64,000 nucleotides of DNA from Microbulbifer litoralis (lineage in GTDB: Bacteria; Pseudomonadota; Gammaproteobacteria; Pseudomonadales; Cellvibrionaceae): contig NZ_JALKCV010000004.1 of NCBI RefSeq assembly GCF_023634065.1, positions 62,001 through 126,000 of the forward strand, given 5' to 3'. The translations under genes were made by a program, and so were the position numbers. Of the stretch, positions 35,531 through 48,174 are shown piece after piece (position 1 is the first letter of the stretch; every line of letters starts with the position of its first letter). A model generated the notes under the pieces. The model made no database searches. It was not told where the DNA came from and saw only the letters and a program-made list of their open reading frames with translations.

Positions 35531-36432
35531 TACTCCTCCAGGTTCGCAACCCCGTGCGGCACATGGCCGGTGGCCACGTGCTCGGCCGCCGAGGCGCAGT
35601 GGTTGGGCTGGTCGTCGAAGAATACATCGGCACCGAAGGCCCGCAGGAATTCACCCTTCGGGAGGCCGCCGAGAAATACCGACTCGTCGATACGCACATG
35701 CCAGGCCCGCAGGGTACGGATGACCCGTTCGTGGGCCGGGGCGGAACGGGCGGTGACCAGGGCCGTGCGGATCGGGCAGCTGTCCGGGCCGAATTCCGCC
35801 TGCAGGCGCTGCAGGGCCTCCAGGAACCCCTTGAAGGGGCCGCCGCCCAGCGGCTTCTGTGCGGAGGCCCGCTCGGCGGCGGCGAAAGCGGCCAGTCCGT
35901 CGCGCTTGAAGATCTGCTCCGCTTCGTCGGAAAAGATCACCGCATCGCCGTCGAACGCGAAGCGCAGCGTGTCGTCGCGGCGCTCGCGCGCTCCGCCGGC
36001 GACCAGGGTCGCCGCCGCCACCCCCTGCTCCAGCGCGTGGCGCACATCCTGCCCGTCGGAGGACAGGAACAGGTGGCAGCCGAACGGCGCGATATAGCGG
36101 TAGGGGCTCTCGCCGTTGCAGAAGGCGGCGCGGGTGATGTCCAGGCCGTAGTGCTCGATGGAGTTGAATACCCGCAGGCCCGTATCGGCACTGTTGCGGG
36201 ACAGCAGGATGACCTCGACCCGCGATTCGCCGCCCAGGCGCTCGTTGATCTGCAGGAATTTCTCCACCAGCGGGAAGGCGTCACCCTTTCGCAGCACGTC
36301 GTTTTCATGCTCCACCTGGTACTGGGAAAAGGCATCCAGGCCCTGCTCCTCGAATACCCGGTGGCTGTCCTGCAGGTCGAACAGGGCGCGCGACGAGATC
36401 GCGATCACCAGTTTGTCGGTGAGCTGTGGCAT
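35530..36432 (-). CDS. Cytosolic 5'-nucleotidase family protein
   Basis: Member of the 5'-nucleotidase family related to eukaryotic cytosolic NT5C1A (PF06189 type), 300 residues. Features are VIAISSRALFDLQDSHRVFEEQG, then VEVILLSRNSADTGLRVFNSI, then CHLFLSSDGQDVRHAL and the late VFFDDQPNHC strand-loop. It would dephosphorylate nucleoside monophosphates in the cytoplasm. Its ATG overlaps the stop of the TetR gene by one base, so the two form an operon. Substrate preference is unknown. Confidence 0.82.
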   Translation of the reverse strand: MPQLTDKLVIAISSRALFDLQDSHRVFEEQGLDAFSQYQVEHENDVLRKGDAFPLVEKFLQINERLGGESRVEVILLSRNSADTGLRVFNSIEHYGLDITRAAFCNGESPYRYIAPFGCHLFLSSDGQDVRHALEQGVAAATLVAGGARERRDDTLRFAFDGDAVIFSDEAEQIFKRDGLAAFAAAERASAQKPLGGGPFKGFLEALQRLQAEFGPDSCPIRTALVTARSAPAHERVIRTLRAWHVRIDESVFLGGLPKGEFLRAFGADVFFDDQPNHCASAAEHVATGHVPHGVANLEE

Positions 36433-37112
36433 CAGGGCGCCTCCACATCGTCGAGACCGGCGGGGTGGCCCTCATCGCGATGGGCCTCGAGCATCGTCAG
36501 CAGCATCCGTTTCAGGTCCTCCCGTGTGCGGTCGGAGCGCACGCCCACCTGGTTGACGATGACCAGGAAAATAGCGTGACAGGTTTCCAGCGTCGTCCGC
36601 GCCAGGCGGTTGAGCTCGTTGGGTGGGCAGCGGAAACCCAGCCGCCGGAACATGTCCGTCAGGTGGCGGATGATCAGTTCGTCGTGACGGTCGTCCAGTT
36701 CGTGCAGCTCCGGAATACCCCACATCGCCTGTACCAGCGGCAGCAAACCGTGCTGTTCGCGGTAGACCGCCAGCAGGCGTTCGATCAACTCGCCGAGAAA
36801 GGCCTCCAGGGACATCTGCTCCAGCCCGGCGCCCTCCAGCTCTTCCAGCGCCGCCGTCATGCTGGCAAGCCACTGCTCCCCCATCGCGTAGAGAATGGCG
36901 TGCTTGTTGGGAAAATAGTGGTACAGGGAGCCCACGGAAACGCCCAGTTCCTTGGCGATCAGGATGGTGGTGAGGTCGTTGAGGCCCACTTCCTCCAGCA
37001 GGCGACCGGTGGTATCCAGGATCTGGCGGGTGCGCGCGCGGGCGCGCTCCTGCACGGGTTCCCGCCGGGGGCTCAGCTGGCTGCGGCGTTTCTTCTGCTC
37101 TGCGTTGGACAA
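36432..37112 (-). CDS. TetR/AcrR-family transcriptional regulator
   Basis: TetR-type repressor of 226 residues. The helix-turn-helix region is ARTRQILDTTGRLLEEVGLNDLTTILIAKELGVSVGSLYHYFPNKHAIL; the C-terminal ligand domain is all-helical. The start is taken as TTG at 37112, seven bases after a strong GGAGGGGAG; an upstream ATG at 37133 overlaps that site and has none of its own. It precedes the 5'-nucleotidase gene with a one-base overlap. A terminator at 37201 separates it from the TonB-dependent receptor gene on the same strand, which it could regulate. Confidence 0.85.
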   Translation of the reverse strand: MSNAEQKKRRSQLSPRREPVQERARARTRQILDTTGRLLEEVGLNDLTTILIAKELGVSVGSLYHYFPNKHAILYAMGEQWLASMTAALEELEGAGLEQMSLEAFLGELIERLLAVYREQHGLLPLVQAMWGIPELHELDDRHDELIIRHLTDMFRRLGFRCPPNELNRLARTTLETCHAIFLVIVNQVGVRSDRTREDLKRMLLTMLEAHRDEGHPAGLDDVEAP

Positions 37113-37200
37113 GATCGTCTCCCCTCCCTCCATTCCGGGCAGTTTACCATCAATCCGGCGCCCGATTTCGAATGGAGAGCGTGGATCCCCACGTCCGGAA

Positions 37201-37234
37201 ACAGAAAACCGGCGTCGGGGCGCCGGTTTTCTGT
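37201..37234. terminator. Strong terminator after the TonB-dependent receptor gene
   Basis: Fourteen-base perfect arms, ACAGAAAACCGGCG and CGCCGGTTTTCTGT, with a six-base loop. It is T-rich on both strands; the adjoining receptor gene ends 30 bases away on the minus strand. Confidence 0.8.
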
Positions 37235-37263: not shown

Positions 37264-39624
37264 TCAGAAGCGGTAGTCCAGGTTGGCCCCCACCACGCGA
37301 CCGCGCGACGGGTCCGTCCTGGTGGCCGGTAGGTTGTACAGGGCCTCGGCGTAACCCCAGTGGTAGTACTCCTCACCGGTCAGGTTCTCCGCGTAGAGAC
37401 CCGCAGTCCAGCTGTCTTCCGGGGACGTCAGCGCGATGCGCAGGTTGAAGACATTGCGGCTGTCGAGTTTCACCGCATCGGTATTCTCCAGGTCGGACCA
37501 CTGCTCGCCGGTAAAGGTGTACTCGCCGGAGAGCGAGATTTCGCCCAGGCCGGTCATATGGCGGTAGGTCAGCACCGTGGCGGAGGAAAACGCCGGGGAA
37601 AAGGCCATTTCGTTGCCGTTGCAGGCATCGCAGAATGCCTCCGGCGCGTCGGTGAATTCGGTATCCAGCCACGCCAGGCCGGTGTACAGGTCCAGGTTGT
37701 CGGTGATCAGCCAGCGGGCGTCCAACTCCAGGCCGCGGCCGGTGGTTTCGCCCACGTTGCGGGTAATCGCCGCCGCGCCCACCCAGAAGGCCTGCTGCAG
37801 GTCGTCGTAGGTGTACTGGAAGGCCGCCGCGTTCAGGGCCAGCCGGTTGTCCAGCAGGCGCGCCTTGACGCCCAGCTCGTAGGACAGCACCTTTTCCTCG
37901 TCGAAGCGGTAGGGTTCGGCGTTGTTCGCATTGACTTCGTAGCCCTGCTCGTCCAGCCAGGCGTACTGGCTGTCGGCATCAGTGCCGTAGGCCGGGTCGG
38001 TGATGCGGTAGGACAGGTAGTCGAAACCGCCGGACTTGTAGCCGGTGGCAACGCTGGCGTAGGCCGTCAGCTCGTCGCTGAATACCCGGGTCAGGGTCGC
38101 GCGGCCGGACAGGTTGTCCCAGGTGTGGTCGCCGGTGATCGGCCCGTCGGTGTACATCGGCTGGTAGTTCCAGGTACCGGTCCAGGTATCCGGCCAGGGA
38201 GAGTCCACTCGGTAGTTTTTCGAGTCCTCGGTGTAGCGCACACCGAGCCCCAGTGTGGTGGCCTCACCCAGGTCGTAGGTGGTGTTGGCGAACAGACCCC
38301 AGCCGCTGTAGTCGCCCAGGGTGTCGGCGGCCTCGATCGACAACTGGCCCGGGGCGTACTCCCAGGGCTCGCCCTCAAAGCCGAAGGCCTCGTCCAGTAC
38401 GCCCTGCGGCAGAGCGTCGCAGCGCACGAAGCTGTCCAGCCCCTCTTCCCATTCGTCGGCATAGATGCCGTCGCAGATAAAGTCCTCGCTGTCGACACCG
38501 GCAAAGTAGGCGTCGATTTCTTCCTCATAGTAAGAGGCTCCCAGCACATAGTTGAAGGGGCCGCTGTTGTTGGAAGTCAGGCGGAACTCCTGGCTGAAGA
38601 AGTCACCGCCCTGGTCGCGCACGTAGGTGTCGATGGCTTCGGCGGTACCGTCGAAGTCCTCGACATAGGTGTAGTTGTGGGTCTTGTAGCCGGTGATGGA
38701 GGTAAAAGTGCTGCCACCGGCCAGCTCGTGTTCGACCGTCAGGATCACGTCGCCGATTTCGGCTTCATCCTTGCCCTGCACATCGTTGTAGACCTGGTCG
38801 TAATCCCCTTCCGGGATCGGGTAGTTGTAGCCGGTGTCGTTGTCGAAAGCGCGGTAGATGGTGCCGTCGCTGATGCGGTCTTCATACTGCGCCGTCAGGG
38901 TCACGGTGGTGTCCTGCAGGCCGTCGTAGACGGCGGTCATGCGCATGGCATTCAGCTCGCTGGCGCCCAGGTCGCGGCCGCCGGCCAGGTTTTCGACATG
39001 GCCGTCTTCCTGGAAGTGCTTGCCGGCAAAGCGCACGGAGAGGTCTTCGCCCAGCGGCATATCGAGGCCGCCCTCGACCTCGGTGCGCCCGTACTGGCCG
39101 GCGCCGATGGAAATATCGCCGGCGACGGTGTCACCGGGCTTGCGGGAGACCATGGAGATGGCACCGGAGGCAGTGTTGCGCCCGAACAGCGTGCCCTGGG
39201 GGCCCTTCACCACTTCCACACGCTGCATGTCGTACATGCTGGGGGTGGCACCGGCACGGCTCTGGTAGACGCCGTCGAGGAAAATCCCCAGCGCCGGGTC
39301 GCTGCCGCTGCCGAAGCTGTTGTTGTTGACGCCGCGCACCGATACCGAATCGAAGAAGGAATCGGTGGTTTCGCCGGAGACACCGGGCGTCAGGGAAAAC
39401 AGGTCCTTGAAATCGCTCAGGTTACTGTTTTTGACGGTATCGCCGGTAAAGGCGCTGACCGCCATGGGTACATCCTTGAGGGATTCGGCACGCATCTGCG
39501 CGGTGACCGTCACCTCTTCAATTTCCGCCGCCGCGGCCCCGCTGCTGGCAGTCAGGACTGCCGCACCGATGGCCGACGCCAGGGTGTATTTGCTGGTTTT
39601 GAATGGTCTGTCCGAAACAGGCAT
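37264..39624 (-). CDS. TonB-dependent outer-membrane receptor
   Basis: Outer-membrane active transporter of 786 residues. A signal peptide (about 1-33, TLASAIGAAVLTASSGAAAA) is followed by a TonB-box-like EIEEVTVTAQ and the plug domain (about 45-160, with VEVVKGPQGTLFGRNTASGAISMVSRKPG). A 22-strand barrel ends in RGRVVGANLDYRF with terminal Phe. The Met at 39624 is preceded by GGGGG; an upstream Met at 39639 has no site. The barrel type (TIGR-like, alteromonad/sphingomonad) is used for carbohydrates or other nutrients as well as iron. Its promoter shares an operator with the puu-like genes, suggesting an amine-containing ligand; this is inference. Confidence 0.9.
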   Translation of the reverse strand: MPVSDRPFKTSKYTLASAIGAAVLTASSGAAAAEIEEVTVTAQMRAESLKDVPMAVSAFTGDTVKNSNLSDFKDLFSLTPGVSGETTDSFFDSVSVRGVNNNSFGSGSDPALGIFLDGVYQSRAGATPSMYDMQRVEVVKGPQGTLFGRNTASGAISMVSRKPGDTVAGDISIGAGQYGRTEVEGGLDMPLGEDLSVRFAGKHFQEDGHVENLAGGRDLGASELNAMRMTAVYDGLQDTTVTLTAQYEDRISDGTIYRAFDNDTGYNYPIPEGDYDQVYNDVQGKDEAEIGDVILTVEHELAGGSTFTSITGYKTHNYTYVEDFDGTAEAIDTYVRDQGGDFFSQEFRLTSNNSGPFNYVLGASYYEEEIDAYFAGVDSEDFICDGIYADEWEEGLDSFVRCDALPQGVLDEAFGFEGEPWEYAPGQLSIEAADTLGDYSGWGLFANTTYDLGEATTLGLGVRYTEDSKNYRVDSPWPDTWTGTWNYQPMYTDGPITGDHTWDNLSGRATLTRVFSDELTAYASVATGYKSGGFDYLSYRITDPAYGTDADSQYAWLDEQGYEVNANNAEPYRFDEEKVLSYELGVKARLLDNRLALNAAAFQYTYDDLQQAFWVGAAAITRNVGETTGRGLELDARWLITDNLDLYTGLAWLDTEFTDAPEAFCDACNGNEMAFSPAFSSATVLTYRHMTGLGEISLSGEYTFTGEQWSDLENTDAVKLDSRNVFNLRIALTSPEDSWTAGLYAENLTGEEYYHWGYAEALYNLPATRTDPSRGRVVGANLDYRF

Positions 39625-39710
39625 GGTCGCCCCCGTCATTTTTTTTATATCAGGGTTGCACATCCGATACCGCCGATGGCTGTTACCCAACGAGTGAATG
39701 TTTGAATCTT

Positions 39711-39744
39711 GTTATCCCACAAACCGAATCATTATTCAAATTCG
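39711..39744 (-). promoter_or_regulatory. Promoter/operator of the TonB-dependent receptor gene
   Basis: On the minus strand TTGAAT (39734-39739) and GATAAC (39711-39716) are 17 bases apart. The -35 and spacer match the glutamine synthetase promoter at 41164 for 21 of 23 positions (core TTGAATAATRATTCGGTT). The palindromic core GAAT-n-AT-n-ATTC overlaps the -35, as expected for a repressor site. Confidence 0.65.
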
Positions 39745-39793
39745 AAATACCCCTCCTATTTTGGTGCGCGGAGTGCACACTGCTGGGGCAAAA

Positions 39794-41101
39794 TCAGCCG
39801 CCAAGCTTGTCCTTGAGGCTGTAGTAGAGCATACCCATCACCAGCCCCGGCCAGCGCAACAGGGTCCCACCCGGGAAAGTGGGAGTCGGAATGCGCGCCA
39901 GTACGTCAAAGCGCTCCTCGGTGCCCGCCACGACTTCTGCAATCAGCTTGCCGGCCAGTGTCGCCGTGGGCACGCCGTGGCCGGAGTAGCCCTGGCTGTA
40001 GAAGACGTTCGGTTCCAGCCGGCCCAGGTGCGGCATCCGGTTCATGGTGATTGCCAGGGTGCCGCCCCAGCCGAACTCGATCGGCGTATCCGCCAGTTGA
40101 GGATAGACCCGCAGCATGTATTTGCGCACGAACTGGCGGATGTCCTGCGGGAAGCGTGAGGAGTAGTTCTCACCGCCGCCGAAGATCAGGCGGTTGTCGC
40201 CGGAGAGTTTCCAGTAGTCGATCACGAACAGGGTGTCCTGCAGCGCGTGGTCGTTGGCGATCAGCTCCCGGGCGAGCGACTCCGGCAGGGGTTCCGTGGC
40301 CAGCACGAAATTGTTGATGGGCATGATCTTGCCGGCCATGCGCGGCTCCAGACCACCCAGGTAGCCGTTGCAGGCCAATACCACATTGCCGGCCTTCACC
40401 CGCCCCCGCTCGGTGTTCACGGTGCAGGGCGAGCCGCCGGTGTAGCGGGTCACACGGCTGTGCTCGAAGAAACGGACCCCGGCGGCCGCGGCGGCATCGG
40501 CCAGGCCCAGGGCATAGTTCAGCGGGTGCAGGTGCAGGGAGCCGCTGTCGACCTGGGCACCGAAGTAGCGCTCGGAACCGACCAGGGAGCGCGCCTCCGC
40601 CTCGTCGATATAGCGCATCTGCCCGTAGCCATAGCGCTCCCGCAACAGCTCCACTTCCTCTTTCAAGCCCTCGTTGTGGCTGCGCTTGGCCGCCAGGTGC
40701 ATAATGCCGCGCTTCAGGTCGCAGCGGATGCCGTGCCGGGTGACCAGCTCCTCGACCAGTTGCACAGCCTCGACGCTCATATCCCACAGTTGCCTGGCAG
40801 TCTCTGCGCCGAGCATTTTCTCCAGGTCCTGCTGGCCGCGGCGCTGCCCCACGCCGACATGGCCACCGTTGCGCCCCGAGGCGCCCCAGCCAATGCGCTC
40901 CGCCTCCAGCACCACCACCCGATAGCCGCGCTCCGCCAGGTGCAGTGCGGAGGACAGGCCGGTGTAGCCGGCACCGATGACGCAGACGTCGGCATCCACC
41001 TCGCCCTCCAGTTGCGGATAAACCGGCGCCGGATTGGCGCTGGCGGCATAGTAGGAATCTGTGTGTCCCAGCAACTTGTTTACGGTGCCAGCGGCCGTCA
41101 T
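39794..41101 (-). CDS. FAD-dependent oxidoreductase, PuuB-like (gamma-glutamylputrescine oxidase)
   Basis: DadA/GlpD-fold flavoprotein of 435 residues. FAD-binding begins ADVCVIGAGYTGLSSALHLAERGYRVVVLEAERIGWGASGRNGGHVG. The C-terminal FGWGGTLAITMNRMPHLGRL and YSQGYSGHGVPTA resemble PuuB (E. coli 426 residues), which oxidises gamma-glutamyl-putrescine to its aldehyde. It is divergent from a PuuA-like glutamine synthetase across a shared operator, strongly supporting a gamma-glutamyl-amine pathway. The other puu genes (puuC, puuD) are not in this window. Confidence 0.8.
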   Translation of the reverse strand: MTAAGTVNKLLGHTDSYYAASANPAPVYPQLEGEVDADVCVIGAGYTGLSSALHLAERGYRVVVLEAERIGWGASGRNGGHVGVGQRRGQQDLEKMLGAETARQLWDMSVEAVQLVEELVTRHGIRCDLKRGIMHLAAKRSHNEGLKEEVELLRERYGYGQMRYIDEAEARSLVGSERYFGAQVDSGSLHLHPLNYALGLADAAAAAGVRFFEHSRVTRYTGGSPCTVNTERGRVKAGNVVLACNGYLGGLEPRMAGKIMPINNFVLATEPLPESLARELIANDHALQDTLFVIDYWKLSGDNRLIFGGGENYSSRFPQDIRQFVRKYMLRVYPQLADTPIEFGWGGTLAITMNRMPHLGRLEPNVFYSQGYSGHGVPTATLAGKLIAEVVAGTEERFDVLARIPTPTFPGGTLLRWPGLVMGMLYYSLKDKLGG

Positions 41102-41139
41102 AGAACGTCTCCCATCGGCGGAAATGGCCCGACGCCATA

Positions 41140-41193
41140 ACCGAACAATAATTCAATTTATAATTGAATAATAATTCGGTTTGTTGTCATAAT
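41140..41193 (+). promoter_or_regulatory. Long dyad operator between the divergent PuuB- and PuuA-like genes, with the puuA-side promoter
   Basis: Two 19-bp arms (41140-41158 and 41162-41180) around a TAT spacer match at 16 of 19 positions. The right arm contains -35 TTGAAT (41164-41169), and CATAAT (41188-41193) follows 18 bases later as -10. Each arm contains the same GAAT-n-AT-n-ATTC palindromic core as the TonB-dependent receptor promoter, so one repressor may bind all three sites. Confidence 0.7.
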
Positions 41194-41355: not shown

Positions 41356-42690
41356 ATGGACAAGATCAAGAAGTGGCTCGCAGAACACAACATTTCCGAA
41401 GTGGAGTGTCTGGTGCCCGACATGTCCGGCAACGCGCGGGGCAAATTTACCCCCACGGACAAATTCCTCACCCAGGACAGCCGCCTGCCGGAGAGTATTC
41501 TGGTGCAGACGGTCACCGGCGACTATGTCGACGAACACAACGAACTGGTGGACCCGGCGGATACCGATATGCTGCTGGTCCCGGATCCGGATTCCATCCG
41601 CCTGAACCCCTGGGCCAACGAGCCCACGGCGCAGATCATCCACGACTGCTACACCCGGGACGGCCAGCCGCATCCGATCAGCACACGCAACATCCTCAAG
41701 TTTGTGCTGGATAAATTTGCCGCGCGCGGCTGGAAACCGATCGTGGCGCCCGAGGTGGAATTCTACCTGATCAAGCGCAACCTGGATCCGGATGAAAAAC
41801 TCTCCGCGCCGGTCGGGCGTTCGGGTCGCACCGAGAAAACCCGGCAGTCCTACAGCATCGATGCAGCCAACGAGTACGAGGCCATCATCGAGGACATGTA
41901 CGATTTCTGCGAAGCCCAGGGGCTGGATGTGGACACGCTGATCCACGAATCGGGCACGGCGCAGATGGAAATCAACTTCCTGCACGGCGATCCGCTGAAG
42001 CTGGCCGACCAGGTCTTCACCTTCAAGCGCACGGTGCGCGAGACGGCGCTGCGTCACGGCATCTATGCCACCTTCATGGCCAAGCCGATGGAACACGAAC
42101 CCGGCAGTGCACTGCACATTCACCAGAGCATCGTCGATGCGGACACCGGTAAAAATATCTTTGTCGACGACGAGGGGCGGGAAAACGAAACCTTCCACCA
42201 CTTTATCGGTGGCATGCAGAAATACACCCCGGGCTTCATCAGTTTTTTTGCCCCCAACGTAAACTCCTACCGGCGCTTCACCCCGGAAATTGCCGCACCC
42301 ACCAGCCTGCACTGGGGCTACGACAACCGCACCACCGGCCTGCGTGTACCGGACAGCTCGGCGCAGGCCAAACGCCTGGAAAACCGCTTCCCCGGGGCGG
42401 ACTGCAACCCCTACCTGGCCATTGCCACCTCCCTCGCCTGCGGTTACCTGGGCATGGTCAACGGGATCAAACCGAGCGAACCCTACCAGGGCGACTGCTC
42501 GGAAGAGCCGATCTCCCTGCCCCGCACCCAGGAGCACGCGCTCAGCTTACTGCTGGAGTGCAAGGAGGCCGAGGAGATGTTCGGGGAAAAATTCGTGCGC
42601 GCCTGGAGTGCGATCAAGCGCGACGAATACGAGGAATTCAATCGCGTGATCAGTTCCTGGGAGAGAGAGTACCTGCTACTGAACGTCTGA
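41356..42690 (+). CDS. Glutamine-synthetase-family gamma-glutamylpolyamine synthetase (PuuA-like)
   Basis: ATP-dependent ligase of the glutamine synthetase superfamily, 444 residues, expected to join glutamate to putrescine or another amine. The catalytic domain shows APEVEFYL, SGTAQMEINFLHGDPLKLADQV, FMAKPMEHEPGSALHIHQS (metal-binding E and H) and NRTTGLRVP with RLENRFPGADCNPYLAIATSLA. It lacks the adenylylation loop of GlnA. The ATG at 41356 has AAGG nine bases upstream; the longer reading covers the promoter. It is divergent from the PuuB-like oxidase, supporting a polyamine-type role. A terminator follows directly. Confidence 0.85.
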   Translation: MDKIKKWLAEHNISEVECLVPDMSGNARGKFTPTDKFLTQDSRLPESILVQTVTGDYVDEHNELVDPADTDMLLVPDPDSIRLNPWANEPTAQIIHDCYTRDGQPHPISTRNILKFVLDKFAARGWKPIVAPEVEFYLIKRNLDPDEKLSAPVGRSGRTEKTRQSYSIDAANEYEAIIEDMYDFCEAQGLDVDTLIHESGTAQMEINFLHGDPLKLADQVFTFKRTVRETALRHGIYATFMAKPMEHEPGSALHIHQSIVDADTGKNIFVDDEGRENETFHHFIGGMQKYTPGFISFFAPNVNSYRRFTPEIAAPTSLHWGYDNRTTGLRVPDSSAQAKRLENRFPGADCNPYLAIATSLACGYLGMVNGIKPSEPYQGDCSEEPISLPRTQEHALSLLLECKEAEEMFGEKFVRAWSAIKRDEYEEFNRVISSWEREYLLLNV

Positions 42691-45353: not shown

Positions 45354-47024
45354 TTATTTGTGGCTGGGATCTTTCCAGTAATCCTTCACGGTATCTTTCA
45401 TTTCCCGGGCGAGGATACTGATACCAAACAGGTTCGGCAGTGTCATGATCACAATGGCCACCGCGGACAGGTTCCAGATCACGGTGGTGTCCTCGATCGC
45501 CGCCCAGAAGAACGCCACCACATAGACGAGGCGGTAGGGCATGACCGCCCTGGGCCCGAACAGGTAGATCATCGAGCGGTCGCCGTAATAGGACCAGGCG
45601 ATGGCGGTGGAGAAGGCAAACAGCAGGATCCCCAGCGTGACAATCAGGCTGCCGTATTCACCGAAGAAGCCTTTCTGGAAGGCCACGTTGGTCAGCGCCA
45701 CCGAGTGCAGCAGTGAGTTGCCCCAGACATCCACATTCGGGTTGACGAACTCTCCGTCGACCACGGTCAGCACACCGCTGAAGTTGTCCTCTCCCACACG
45801 GAACTCGACATCCTCCGCCACCGAGCGTGCATTGATGATGGTGAACTCATCACTGTTCAGCGCGCGACCATCGGCCACCACCACGGAGCCGCTGTAGGCC
45901 TGTACGTCGCTGTCGCCGTCGGTCAGGAAACCGAATAACTGCTGCACATTTTCCGGCTGGTCGTCGGTGTAGGTGCCGGCGACCACGGCCATATCGGCGC
46001 GCTCGAACCGGTTCATGTGTTTTTCCGTCCAGACGCCGGACGACAGGATCACCAACCCGGTCAGGGTACAGATGATGATGGTGTCGATAAACGGCTCCAG
46101 CAGCGAAACCATGCCCTCGGACACCGGCTCGTCGGCTCTTGCCGAGGCGTGCGCAATGGGTGCGGAGCCCTGCCCCGCCTCGTTGGAGAAGAGACCGCGG
46201 TTGACGCCGCGGTTGAAGGCGTAGGCAAAGGTTGCACCGAGGAAGCCGCCCGCTGCCGCAGTGCCGTTGAACGCATCCTTGAAGACTGCCACGAAGGACG
46301 GAATGATATTCTGGTAGTTGTAGGTGATTACCGCCAGGGCACCGATGATATACAGCACCGCCATGATCGGCACGATGGTGGAGGTCACCTTGGCGATGCG
46401 GGTAATACCGCCGATGATTACCATCCCCAGCAGGATGGCGAGAATGCCGCCGGTCAGCGCCTTGTTCAGGCCAAAGGTATCGTACATGGCCTGGGCGATA
46501 TTGTTTACCTGCGGCAGGCTGCCGGTACCGAAGGAGCAGATCACCGTGGCGATGGCGAACAGCACCGCCAGCCACTTCATGTTCAGGCGTCGCTCCATGT
46601 AAAACATCGGCCCGCCGGCAAAGTAACCGTCCGCCGCCTTGATGCGGTATTTGTGCGAGAGGGTTACCTCGACAAATTTGGTGGTCATGCCGAGGAAGGC
46701 CGTGACCCACATCCAGAAAAGCGCGGCCGGGCCACCGAGGAAAATCGCCAGGCCCACACCGCCGATATTACCGGTACCTACCGTACCGGAGAGAGCCGTG
46801 GAGAGTGCCTGGAAGTGAGAGGTATCACCCGGGTCACCGGGCTTGTCATACTTGCCCTGGACAATCTTCACCGCATGGCGGAAATAGCGAATCTGCGGAA
46901 AGCCCAGGTACAGGGTAAAAAACAGACCGACCCCCAAAAGCACCCAGGGGAACCAGGGTGCGGAGCCGAGCAGGCCGTCCAGGGACAACAGCACATGATT
47001 GAAGGATTCCAAATCAGCCCCCAC
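45354..47024 (-). CDS. Alanine/glycine:cation symporter (AGCS family)
   Basis: Sodium- or proton-coupled uptake of alanine or glycine, 556 residues. Family motifs are [56 protein letters not shown] and the helix pair around [19 protein letters not shown]. An insertion of about 95 acidic, hydrophilic residues (341-440) lies between two helices, so the protein is longer than the ~450-residue norm. The start is uncertain: GTG at 47024, or TTG at 47012 (MESFNHVLL) which has a GGGGG six bases upstream. It is convergent with the M4 protease, and the two suit peptide use. Confidence 0.9.
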
Positions 47025-47122
47025 TACTCTTATTTAATTCTGATTGTTTTGTGTACAGCCGAAGCTGCCGATTGCAGCGCAGGTTAGCAGCTTCCGTCAA
47101 AGTAGAACAGTAAGCGGCCATT

Positions 47123-48133
47123 TTACAGAAGGAAGGAAAACTTTTCCCGGTGGGGAAACAGCCCGAACTGACCGCCGGTATGCACGAAAACCAGGTTTTC
47201 GCAATCCCGGTAGCGTCCCTTGCGCAGCTCCTGCAGCAGGCCGTGGAAGGCCTTGCCCGTATATACCGGGTCCAGTAACAGCCCCTCTTGCGCCGCCGCA
47301 TCGGCAATCGTACGGTAAACCGGTTCGTCGGCCTCGGCATACCCCGGGCCGATATAATCCGCATTGACCGAGATATCCAGCTGCTCTTCGTCGATGTGGT
47401 TGCCGCTCAACTCGCTCCAGTGGCGCACATCCTCACGCACCTTGCGCCGGAAGTACTCGGCGTTGTCGCAGACGGCATAGCCGGTCACCAGCGCGCGGGC
47501 CCCATTCAGCTGGCAGCCCAGCGTCAGGCCCGCCTGGGTGCCGCCGCTGCCGGTGGCACAGACAATATGCTCCGGCTCAAAACCCGCCTCCCGGCAATCC
47601 TCCAGCAGCTCCGCAGCGCCGGCGATATAGCCCCAGATGCCGAGCCCGTCGCTGGCGCCGGTGGGAATACAGAATGCCCTGTGCCCGCGCTGTGCGTAGA
47701 AGTTTTTCCAGTGTTCGAACAACTGTGGCAGCTCCTCAAAGTACTGGCGGGCCGGGTAGCAGGCGGTCGACGCTCCCGCCAGCTCATCCAGGAGCAGGTT
47801 CCCGTCCACCGGCCCGCTGACTTCGCCGCGCAGGATAAGCTGCACACGAAACCCCAGCCTGGCCCCCACCAGTGCGGTGGTGCGGCAGTGGTTCGACTGT
47901 ATCCCGCCGCAGGTGATCAGCGTATCGCAACCCCGCTCCCGCGCCGCACCGGCGATGAATTCCAGTTTGCGCAGTTTGTTACCGGACATGGCTGACTCGG
48001 TGAGATCGTCACGTTTCACCCACAGGCGCGGTCCGCCGAACGGCGTGGAGAACTTTTCAGTGATGCGGTCCAGTGGCTGCAGGGGGGTGGGCAGGTTGGC
48101 GAGGCGAACCCGCGCCGGAAAAGTAAGTTCCAT
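47123..48133 (-). CDS. ACC deaminase / D-cysteine desulfhydrase family PLP enzyme
   Basis: Fold-type II PLP enzyme of 336 residues. It opens LPTPLQPLDRITE and has the PLP lysine in SAMSGNKLRKLEF, then TCGGIQSNHCRTTALVGARLGF, and the phosphate loop CATGSGGTQAGLTLG. Members are D-cysteine desulfhydrases (pyruvate, ammonia, H2S) or 1-aminocyclopropane-1-carboxylate deaminases. The tail HTGGQFGLFPH is common to both. The ATG at 48133 is preferred over 48163 by homology. It follows yajC after a terminator, hence probably independent. Confidence 0.85.
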   Translation of the reverse strand: MELTFPARVRLANLPTPLQPLDRITEKFSTPFGGPRLWVKRDDLTESAMSGNKLRKLEFIAGAARERGCDTLITCGGIQSNHCRTTALVGARLGFRVQLILRGEVSGPVDGNLLLDELAGASTACYPARQYFEELPQLFEHWKNFYAQRGHRAFCIPTGASDGLGIWGYIAGAAELLEDCREAGFEPEHIVCATGSGGTQAGLTLGCQLNGARALVTGYAVCDNAEYFRRKVREDVRHWSELSGNHIDEEQLDISVNADYIGPGYAEADEPVYRTIADAAAQEGLLLDPVYTGKAFHGLLQELRKGRYRDCENLVFVHTGGQFGLFPHREKFSFLL

Positions 48134-48174
48134 GGTCTTTTCCCGCTTGTCCAGGAAGGGCACTGTCGGCCCGA

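Follow-up and report, generated by a model that had tools for sequence, protein, structure and literature searches.

A predicted TetR-family operator at a TonB-dependent receptor gene and at polyamine genes in Microbulbifer

Described polyamine regulons and TonB-linked regulons

In Pseudomonas aeruginosa, the PauR and BauR regulons cover the gamma-glutamylation and beta-alanine branches of polyamine utilization under regulators of other families, and we know of no TonB receptor in either regulon. Polyamines are nitrogen-rich and abundant in marine blooms, and the small ones are thought to pass outer-membrane porins. The Puu pathway of Escherichia coli is close to the Microbulbifer locus in its proteins and layout: the locus encodes a PuuB-like oxidase (45.9% identity to E. 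coli PuuB over 423 aa) and a PuuA-like ligase (33.4% identity to E. coli PuuA over 449 aa), which diverge from an operator region, and PuuC of a congener shares 55% identity with its E. coli counterpart. These homologues of PuuA, PuuB and PuuC have a common predicted operator. The PuuA-like ligase scores under the cut-off of the NCBIfam GGputSyn model, as E. coli PuuA itself does. The locus differs from the E. coli system in its regulator, a TetR-family protein that has no blastp match to PuuR at 1e-5 and is not of the PuuR (XRE) type. It also differs in that no PuuP adjoins and that the Microbulbifer targets additionally include a TonB receptor, polyamine synthesis genes and a membrane protein gene, here called MP279.

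E. coli AcrR, a TetR-family repressor, is described in the accessible part of PMC9769551 as released by putrescine, cadaverine and spermidine and as controlling puuA. It resembles the regulator proposed here in being a TetR-family protein tied to polyamines and puuA, but its main target is drug efflux and that part of the article makes no mention of TonB. Furthermore, no AcrR model is among the 10 NCBIfam families listed for the Microbulbifer protein. The AcrR precedent makes a polyamine more plausible as the ligand class and the regulator less new. The same part of the article states that polyamines block the OmpF and OmpC porins, which might also favour an active polyamine route. TonB transporters have been predicted by comparative genomics in the catabolic regulons of HypR and HutC, according to the available portion of PMC5343134. 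These regulons likewise combine the catabolism of a nitrogen compound with a TonB-dependent transporter, but they concern hydroxyproline/proline and histidine, and their regulators belong to the GntR family. A review of the regulation of polyamine assimilation lists PuuR, EpuRII and GlnR among others and, in its accessible sections, names no TonB receptor (PMC9397018); searches of openly licensed papers brought up no polyamine regulon that includes a TonB receptor.

We consider it probable that the locus belongs to a polyamine regulon, in which the TetR-family protein would bind a shared operator and be released by a polyamine or a product of it, and in which the receptor would import a polyamine or a polyamine conjugate. 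If this is true, several genera actively take up certain polyamines or conjugates of them. It would also propose a substrate class for one receptor among the 79 TonB-receptor barrel hits of the host genome, and offer a regulator with a defined predicted operator and a pathway for the domain-less MP279 family.

The shared element and the genes that it precedes

The window, i.e. the whole 64-kb stretch analysed, contains a block in which the genes for TetR, the receptor and the PuuB-like oxidase lie on the minus strand, followed by the divergent gene for the PuuA-like ligase, a glutamine-synthetase-like (GS) protein (Table 1). The TetR protein matches Pfam TetR_N with 48.6 bits (cut-off 24) and TetR_C_15 with 67.4 bits (26.8), and the receptor has the plug (61.2 bits) and barrel (92.6 bits) domains of TonB-dependent transporters. 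At 45354-48163 of the window, an AgcS-type symporter gene and a CuyA/desulfhydrase-like gene lie without a motif match; they adjoin GS in most of the congeneric loci examined.

Table 1. Genes of the block (start codons picked by eye), inferred promoter elements and predicted operators, in window coordinates
Feature	Position	Strand	Basis
TetR-family regulator, proposed operator binder	36432..37133	-	Pfam TetR_N and TetR_C_15
TonB-dependent outer-membrane receptor	37264..39639	-	Pfam plug and barrel
Receptor gene, inferred -10 (GATAAC)	39711-39716	-	
Predicted receptor operator	39723..39739	-	exact motif match; kept in congeneric loci
Receptor gene, inferred -35 (TTGAAT)	39734-39739	-	
PuuB-like FAD oxidase (gamma-glutamylpolyamine oxidase)	39794..41101	-	identity to E. 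coli PuuB; DAO
Predicted left operator of the 41-bp dyad, PuuB-like side	41140..41156	+	exact motif match
Predicted right operator of the 41-bp dyad	41164..41180	+	exact motif match
PuuA-like gene, inferred -35 (TTGAAT)	41164-41169	+	
PuuA-like gene, inferred -10 (CATAAT)	41188-41193	+	
PuuA-like gamma-glutamylpolyamine synthetase	41356..42690	+	identity to E. coli PuuA; glutamine synthetase fold

A preliminary description of this DNA had pointed out that the receptor promoter (TTGAATAATGATTCGGTTTGTGG) and the GS promoter (TTGAATAATAATTCGGTTTGTTG) agree at 21 of 23 positions from the -35 onwards, and alignment reproduced this exactly, positions included. The 41-bp dyad that it reported, with an inverted second copy, also proved correct: it spans 41140-41180, and 32 of its 41 positions are self-complementary. 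Its term "unlinked" for the two promoters did not stand, as they sit 1.4 kb apart in one block; the truly unlinked copies of the motif are those at aptA, speA, puuC and MP279, all outside the window. The motif ACCGAAYNATNATTCAA has exactly three exact matches in the window, at the receptor promoter and the two dyad halves. When up to three mismatches were allowed, four matches were found against 0.92 expected, a number reached in 2 of 100 shuffles. The short core GAATNATNATTC with two mismatches showed no excess over chance in the window (8 found, 10.2 expected), and therefore the ACCG/CGGT flank holds much of the signal.

We scanned the host genome (4.99 Mb) with the motif. With at most one mismatch allowed, there were six places, three of them in the window, and all six precede polyamine-pathway genes, the receptor or MP279. 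With up to three mismatches, there were 74 sites against 28 for the reversed control. One of the unlinked sites lies 72 bp ahead of a gene for an AptA-type omega-aminotransferase (700.7 bits, cut-off 500), which is followed by mmsdh, encoding a CoA-acylating methylmalonate-semialdehyde dehydrogenase (676.7, cut-off 448.5). Another lies 159 bp ahead of speA, encoding biosynthetic arginine decarboxylase (828.3, cut-off 369). The second protein of the speA operon is carboxynorspermidine synthase-like (434.1, below the cut-off of 800), and carboxynorspermidine decarboxylase (472.2, cut-off 409.05) and agmatinase (235.3, cut-off 174.3) follow. A third site lies 71 bp ahead of MP279, a gene for a 279-residue membrane protein. 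In addition, a degenerate palindrome, ACTGAAGCATTATTCAG, lies 28 bp ahead of the start codon of the host's own puuC (C5:159255-160757). That the motif is the mark of a polyamine regulon is a well-supported prediction. At 0-1 mismatch, the motif is not common at unrelated promoters of the host genome; in relatives, 5 of the 25 sites outside the TetR locus among the matches listed (other congeners and G022) have no adjoining pathway gene (L130, L131, L135, L142, L146). The rest of these 25 precede MP279 (9), puuC (5), aptA (4), speA (1) and, in G022, a succinate-semialdehyde dehydrogenase gene (1).

The element is kept in congeners. Another 25 congeneric loci contain the receptor. At least one site (0-1 mismatch) stands in the divergent oxidase/GS region of every one of them, and 24 have two sites there, spaced 22-24 bp from each other (0-2 mismatches). 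Of the 25 receptor promoters, 23 carry a site with at most one mismatch; L095 has one with two mismatches and L086 has none. For the remaining promoters we used a score matrix trained on 67 sites (at most one mismatch) from the GS/oxidase and receptor loci. Its scores at the GS and receptor promoters are therefore circular, and only those at speA, puuC, MP279 and aptA are independent of the training set; the gaps between high and low scores were identified post hoc. The background came from 1,236 windows, each 250 bp long, of the same loci with real sites included; its 95th percentile is at 5.8 and its 99th at 25.4. The speA promoters, covering 30 of 36 congeneric genes, score at least 8.9 in 24/24 loci of genomes with TetR and at most 4.0 in 6/6 loci without it. 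Among the puuC promoters (30 of 38 matches covered), 23/23 loci with the canonical TetR score at least 9.1, and three of three without TetR and four of four with a variant TetR score at most 1.1. The MP279 promoter scores at least 17.3 in 25 of 26 congeners, L273 having no site, and 8.6 in G022; G027 has none. The aptA promoter reaches at least 10.0 in all ten orthologues (at least 76% identity) and in neither of two relatives of about 59%. Outside the five genera that have the TetR gene, operator counts are uninformative, since reversed controls match there too.

Two other palindromes were observed. All puuC promoters examined (L180-L209, e.g. L181:3062-3071) have TGTGATCACA within their inferred spacer, whether or not TetR is present, and this palindrome occurs in 36 of 402 fetched loci, 35 of which are puuC loci (some loci overlap). 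This suggests that puuC likely has a second, specific regulator. The GS/oxidase and receptor-operon promoters of genus g27 (L115-L118, L391, L392) carry CCCC-AATT-GGGG-like palindromes on both sides of the TetR site.

TetR as the candidate regulator and its possible mode of action

Occurrence of the motif follows that of the TetR gene directly downstream of the receptor gene. Among 36 congeners, at most one mismatch allowed, the 26 with the canonical TetR have 110 motif hits against 4 with the reversed control, the four with a variant TetR have 1 against 4, and the six without TetR have 3 against 3. The GS promoter site is present in none of the six TetR-less congeners and in all five g9 genomes, in which GS and TetR are unlinked (separate contigs, or a long distance between them). 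The four variant genomes have ARKLDI in place of AKELGV in the helix-turn-helix, and their GS operator has become GAAT-GGTA-ATTC in three and a decayed form in the other. In a speA tree of 30 genomes, the six TetR-less and four variant genomes form one clade, with two state changes in all; the co-occurrence of TetR and motif within the genus therefore amounts to one or two events, and Fisher values overstate independence. A common regulator of the receptor, the puu genes and the unlinked targets is well supported by these comparisons, and the TetR-family protein is likely to be the binder. The preliminary description had postulated a common repressor. The shared regulator in this claim holds up, given the recurring operators and the absence of sites where TetR is absent, and repression is what we infer.

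Alternatively, some other regulator of general function, such as Fur, might bind the motif, the TetR gene being a bystander. The motif is A+T-rich, and within the window no ACCGAAYNATNATTCAA match lies ahead of the TetR gene's own start, a result that also counts against the polyamine regulon proposed here. A bystander is difficult to reconcile with the absence of the speA, GS and puuC sites from the TetR-less congeners examined, and with the changed helix-turn-helix that accompanies the changed GS operator, and we regard this explanation as very improbable. Fur was rejected as the binder: a consensus scan stayed at background, the best match at the receptor promoter being 12/19, which 15 of 400 random windows equalled, and the sites are absent from the TetR-less congeners examined. 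A terminator-like G+C-rich inverted repeat at 37205-37230 of the window separates the receptor and TetR genes, and TetR may therefore have its own promoter.

Relative to the inferred starts, operator centres lie at about -28.5 (receptor), -29.5 (GS), +0.5 (own puuC), -47.5 (aptA) and -98.5 (own speA). The speA operator centre is 54-56 bp upstream of the inferred start in 18 of 30 loci, namely those where a simple pattern found both promoter elements, and the host's own speA has a degenerate operator copy at about this place. The motif had been said to block the -35; this is right for the receptor and GS promoters, where it overlaps the -35/spacer (by eye also at MP279), but not for aptA, speA and puuC. 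The positions at the receptor, GS and puuC would fit repression. At speA, where the site lies upstream of a weak -35, activation would fit as well or better; repressing polyamine synthesis too would make poor sense unless the regulator acts otherwise there.

In the polyamine regulon that we propose, the TetR-family protein would bind palindromes of the type ACCGAATNATNATTCRRT. At the receptor and PuuA promoters, half of the palindrome is at the same time the -35 hexamer, TTGAAT, and bound TetR would exclude RNA polymerase there. TetR would release the operators once a polyamine, or a product of its breakdown, reaches high levels. The gamma-glutamylation pathway (PuuA, PuuB, PuuC) and the beta-alanine branch (AptA, MMSDH) would then be made, together with MP279 and the TonB receptor for a polyamine or a polyamine-containing compound. 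A more elaborate version is tentative and on balance doubtful: TetR might be a two-way switch whose ligand-free form keeps import and breakdown repressed and promotes synthesis, and the TonB receptor and MP279 might form a two-membrane route for polyamines too large, scarce or porin-blocking for diffusion, e.g. acylated or long-chain ones. It builds on the sites at the -35/spacer or +1, which suggest repression, and on the activator-like position of the speA site in the 18 loci. To repress import and breakdown while supporting synthesis at low polyamine would make physiological sense.

Distribution of the receptor and its candidate substrates

We surveyed 120 genomes of 30 genera with E-value cut-offs of 1e-30 (TetR), 1e-20 (MP279) and 1e-120 (receptor). 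TetR was found in 43 genomes, MP279 in 39 and the receptor in 37, all limited to the same five genera (g1, g9, g14, g22, g27), and the genomes with MP279 and those with the receptor are both subsets of those with TetR. In G056 and G064, both of g27, TetR and MP279 are present and the receptor is absent at 1e-120. Single stop codons were reported inside the matches to the receptor genes of G093 and G117 and to tetR of G117. The receptor lies behind a predicted operator in three genera. In g14 (L293, L393, L394), the region between MP279 and an oxidase-receptor unit carries a single site or a pair, and in g27 (L391, L392), a site lies ahead of a TPR/sulfotransferase-receptor unit, far from TetR. 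The g9 relative of the receptor is flanked by genes for a putrescine-type aminotransferase and a PuuA-like protein, with a LuxR-type regulator and an amino-acid permease also near it in L387; an operator was found in 0 of 4 g9 loci, which counts against the regulon model. Paralogous receptors of 35-37% identity (Microbulbifer, G022), taken as a control, have an operator score of at least 9 in 0 of 6 loci. A TPR protein with a sulfotransferase domain adjoins the receptor in the clusters of three lineages (L291, L292, L293, L391).

More distant relatives were compared by neighbourhood. Six retrieved relatives have a best segment of at least 36%, and five of them, from HTCC2207, two Porticoccaceae, a Pseudomonadales bin and Pseudomaricurvus, adjoin a putrescine-type aminotransferase gene. 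Three of the five have a PuuA-like gene nearby as well; for the other two, the contig stops too early to tell. PuuD-like genes are present in the L292 cluster, near the receptor relative, and in the g14 clusters. None of the query genes adjoins the relatives L328 (M. hainanensis, 37%), L296, L298, L299 and L342, and L294 and L300 (35%) have aldehyde dehydrogenases as sole query-gene neighbours. The best reading of these comparisons is that the receptor may import a polyamine or polyamine conjugate via TonB. The small size of free putrescine and spermidine suggests that a scarce, large or conjugated polyamine is the likelier ligand. The preliminary description had proposed a TonB-dependent polyamine route; the polyamine role is well supported by recurrence of the operator in related species at puuA/puuB, puuC, aptA and speA, and uptake by the receptor is the part that we infer.

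Among proteins of solved structure, those closely related to the receptor are siderophore or related metal-chelate receptors, the best being the pesticin receptor (74 bits). With the same operator and TetR, the receptor might therefore import the iron complex of a polyamine-containing siderophore, the amine of which the enzymes would recycle, and such siderophores with their own TonB receptors exist, as described in the available part of PMC7962358. This is unlikely, as the Fur box of the receptor promoter is at the level of random windows and the neighbours of the receptor in other families are breakdown genes. The receptor's unusual acidity was set aside as a weak hint: its net charge per residue is -0.096 against a mean of -0.069 (sd 0.018) in 23 receptors, each less acidic, that were kept from the best 30 of the 79 barrel hits after seven with a frame end other than F, W or Y were dropped; some frames may be wrong.

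The true substrate could instead be another amine or an omega-amino acid (e.g. beta-alanine or a mono-amine), the polyamine genes being secondary. GS-family ligases accept varied amines, AptA belongs to the omega-aminotransferase family, and the top score of the oxidase is to L-pipecolate oxidase, though that of E. coli PuuB is too. Several observations make this improbable: the identity of the congener PuuC to that of E. coli, the site at the speA operon in every TetR-containing locus covered, the PuuD-like and putrescine-type aminotransferase genes that cluster with receptor relatives, and the succinate-semialdehyde dehydrogenase gene behind the G022 site.

MP279 would take part in the polyamine regulon as a further target. 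The host's gene is L023:5945-6784, its relatives are L252-L279, and searches of Pfam, NCBIfam and PDB gave no match at the thresholds used. It follows the site and GS in g9 (L401, L402), and in g27 (L115, L117) the order is GS, amidohydrolase and MP279. Amidohydro_3 genes with lipoprotein-like starts lie beside GS in g14 and g27 (L122:2445-4541, L115:5142-7133, L117:3872-5932), and these amidohydrolases could release amines from amides.
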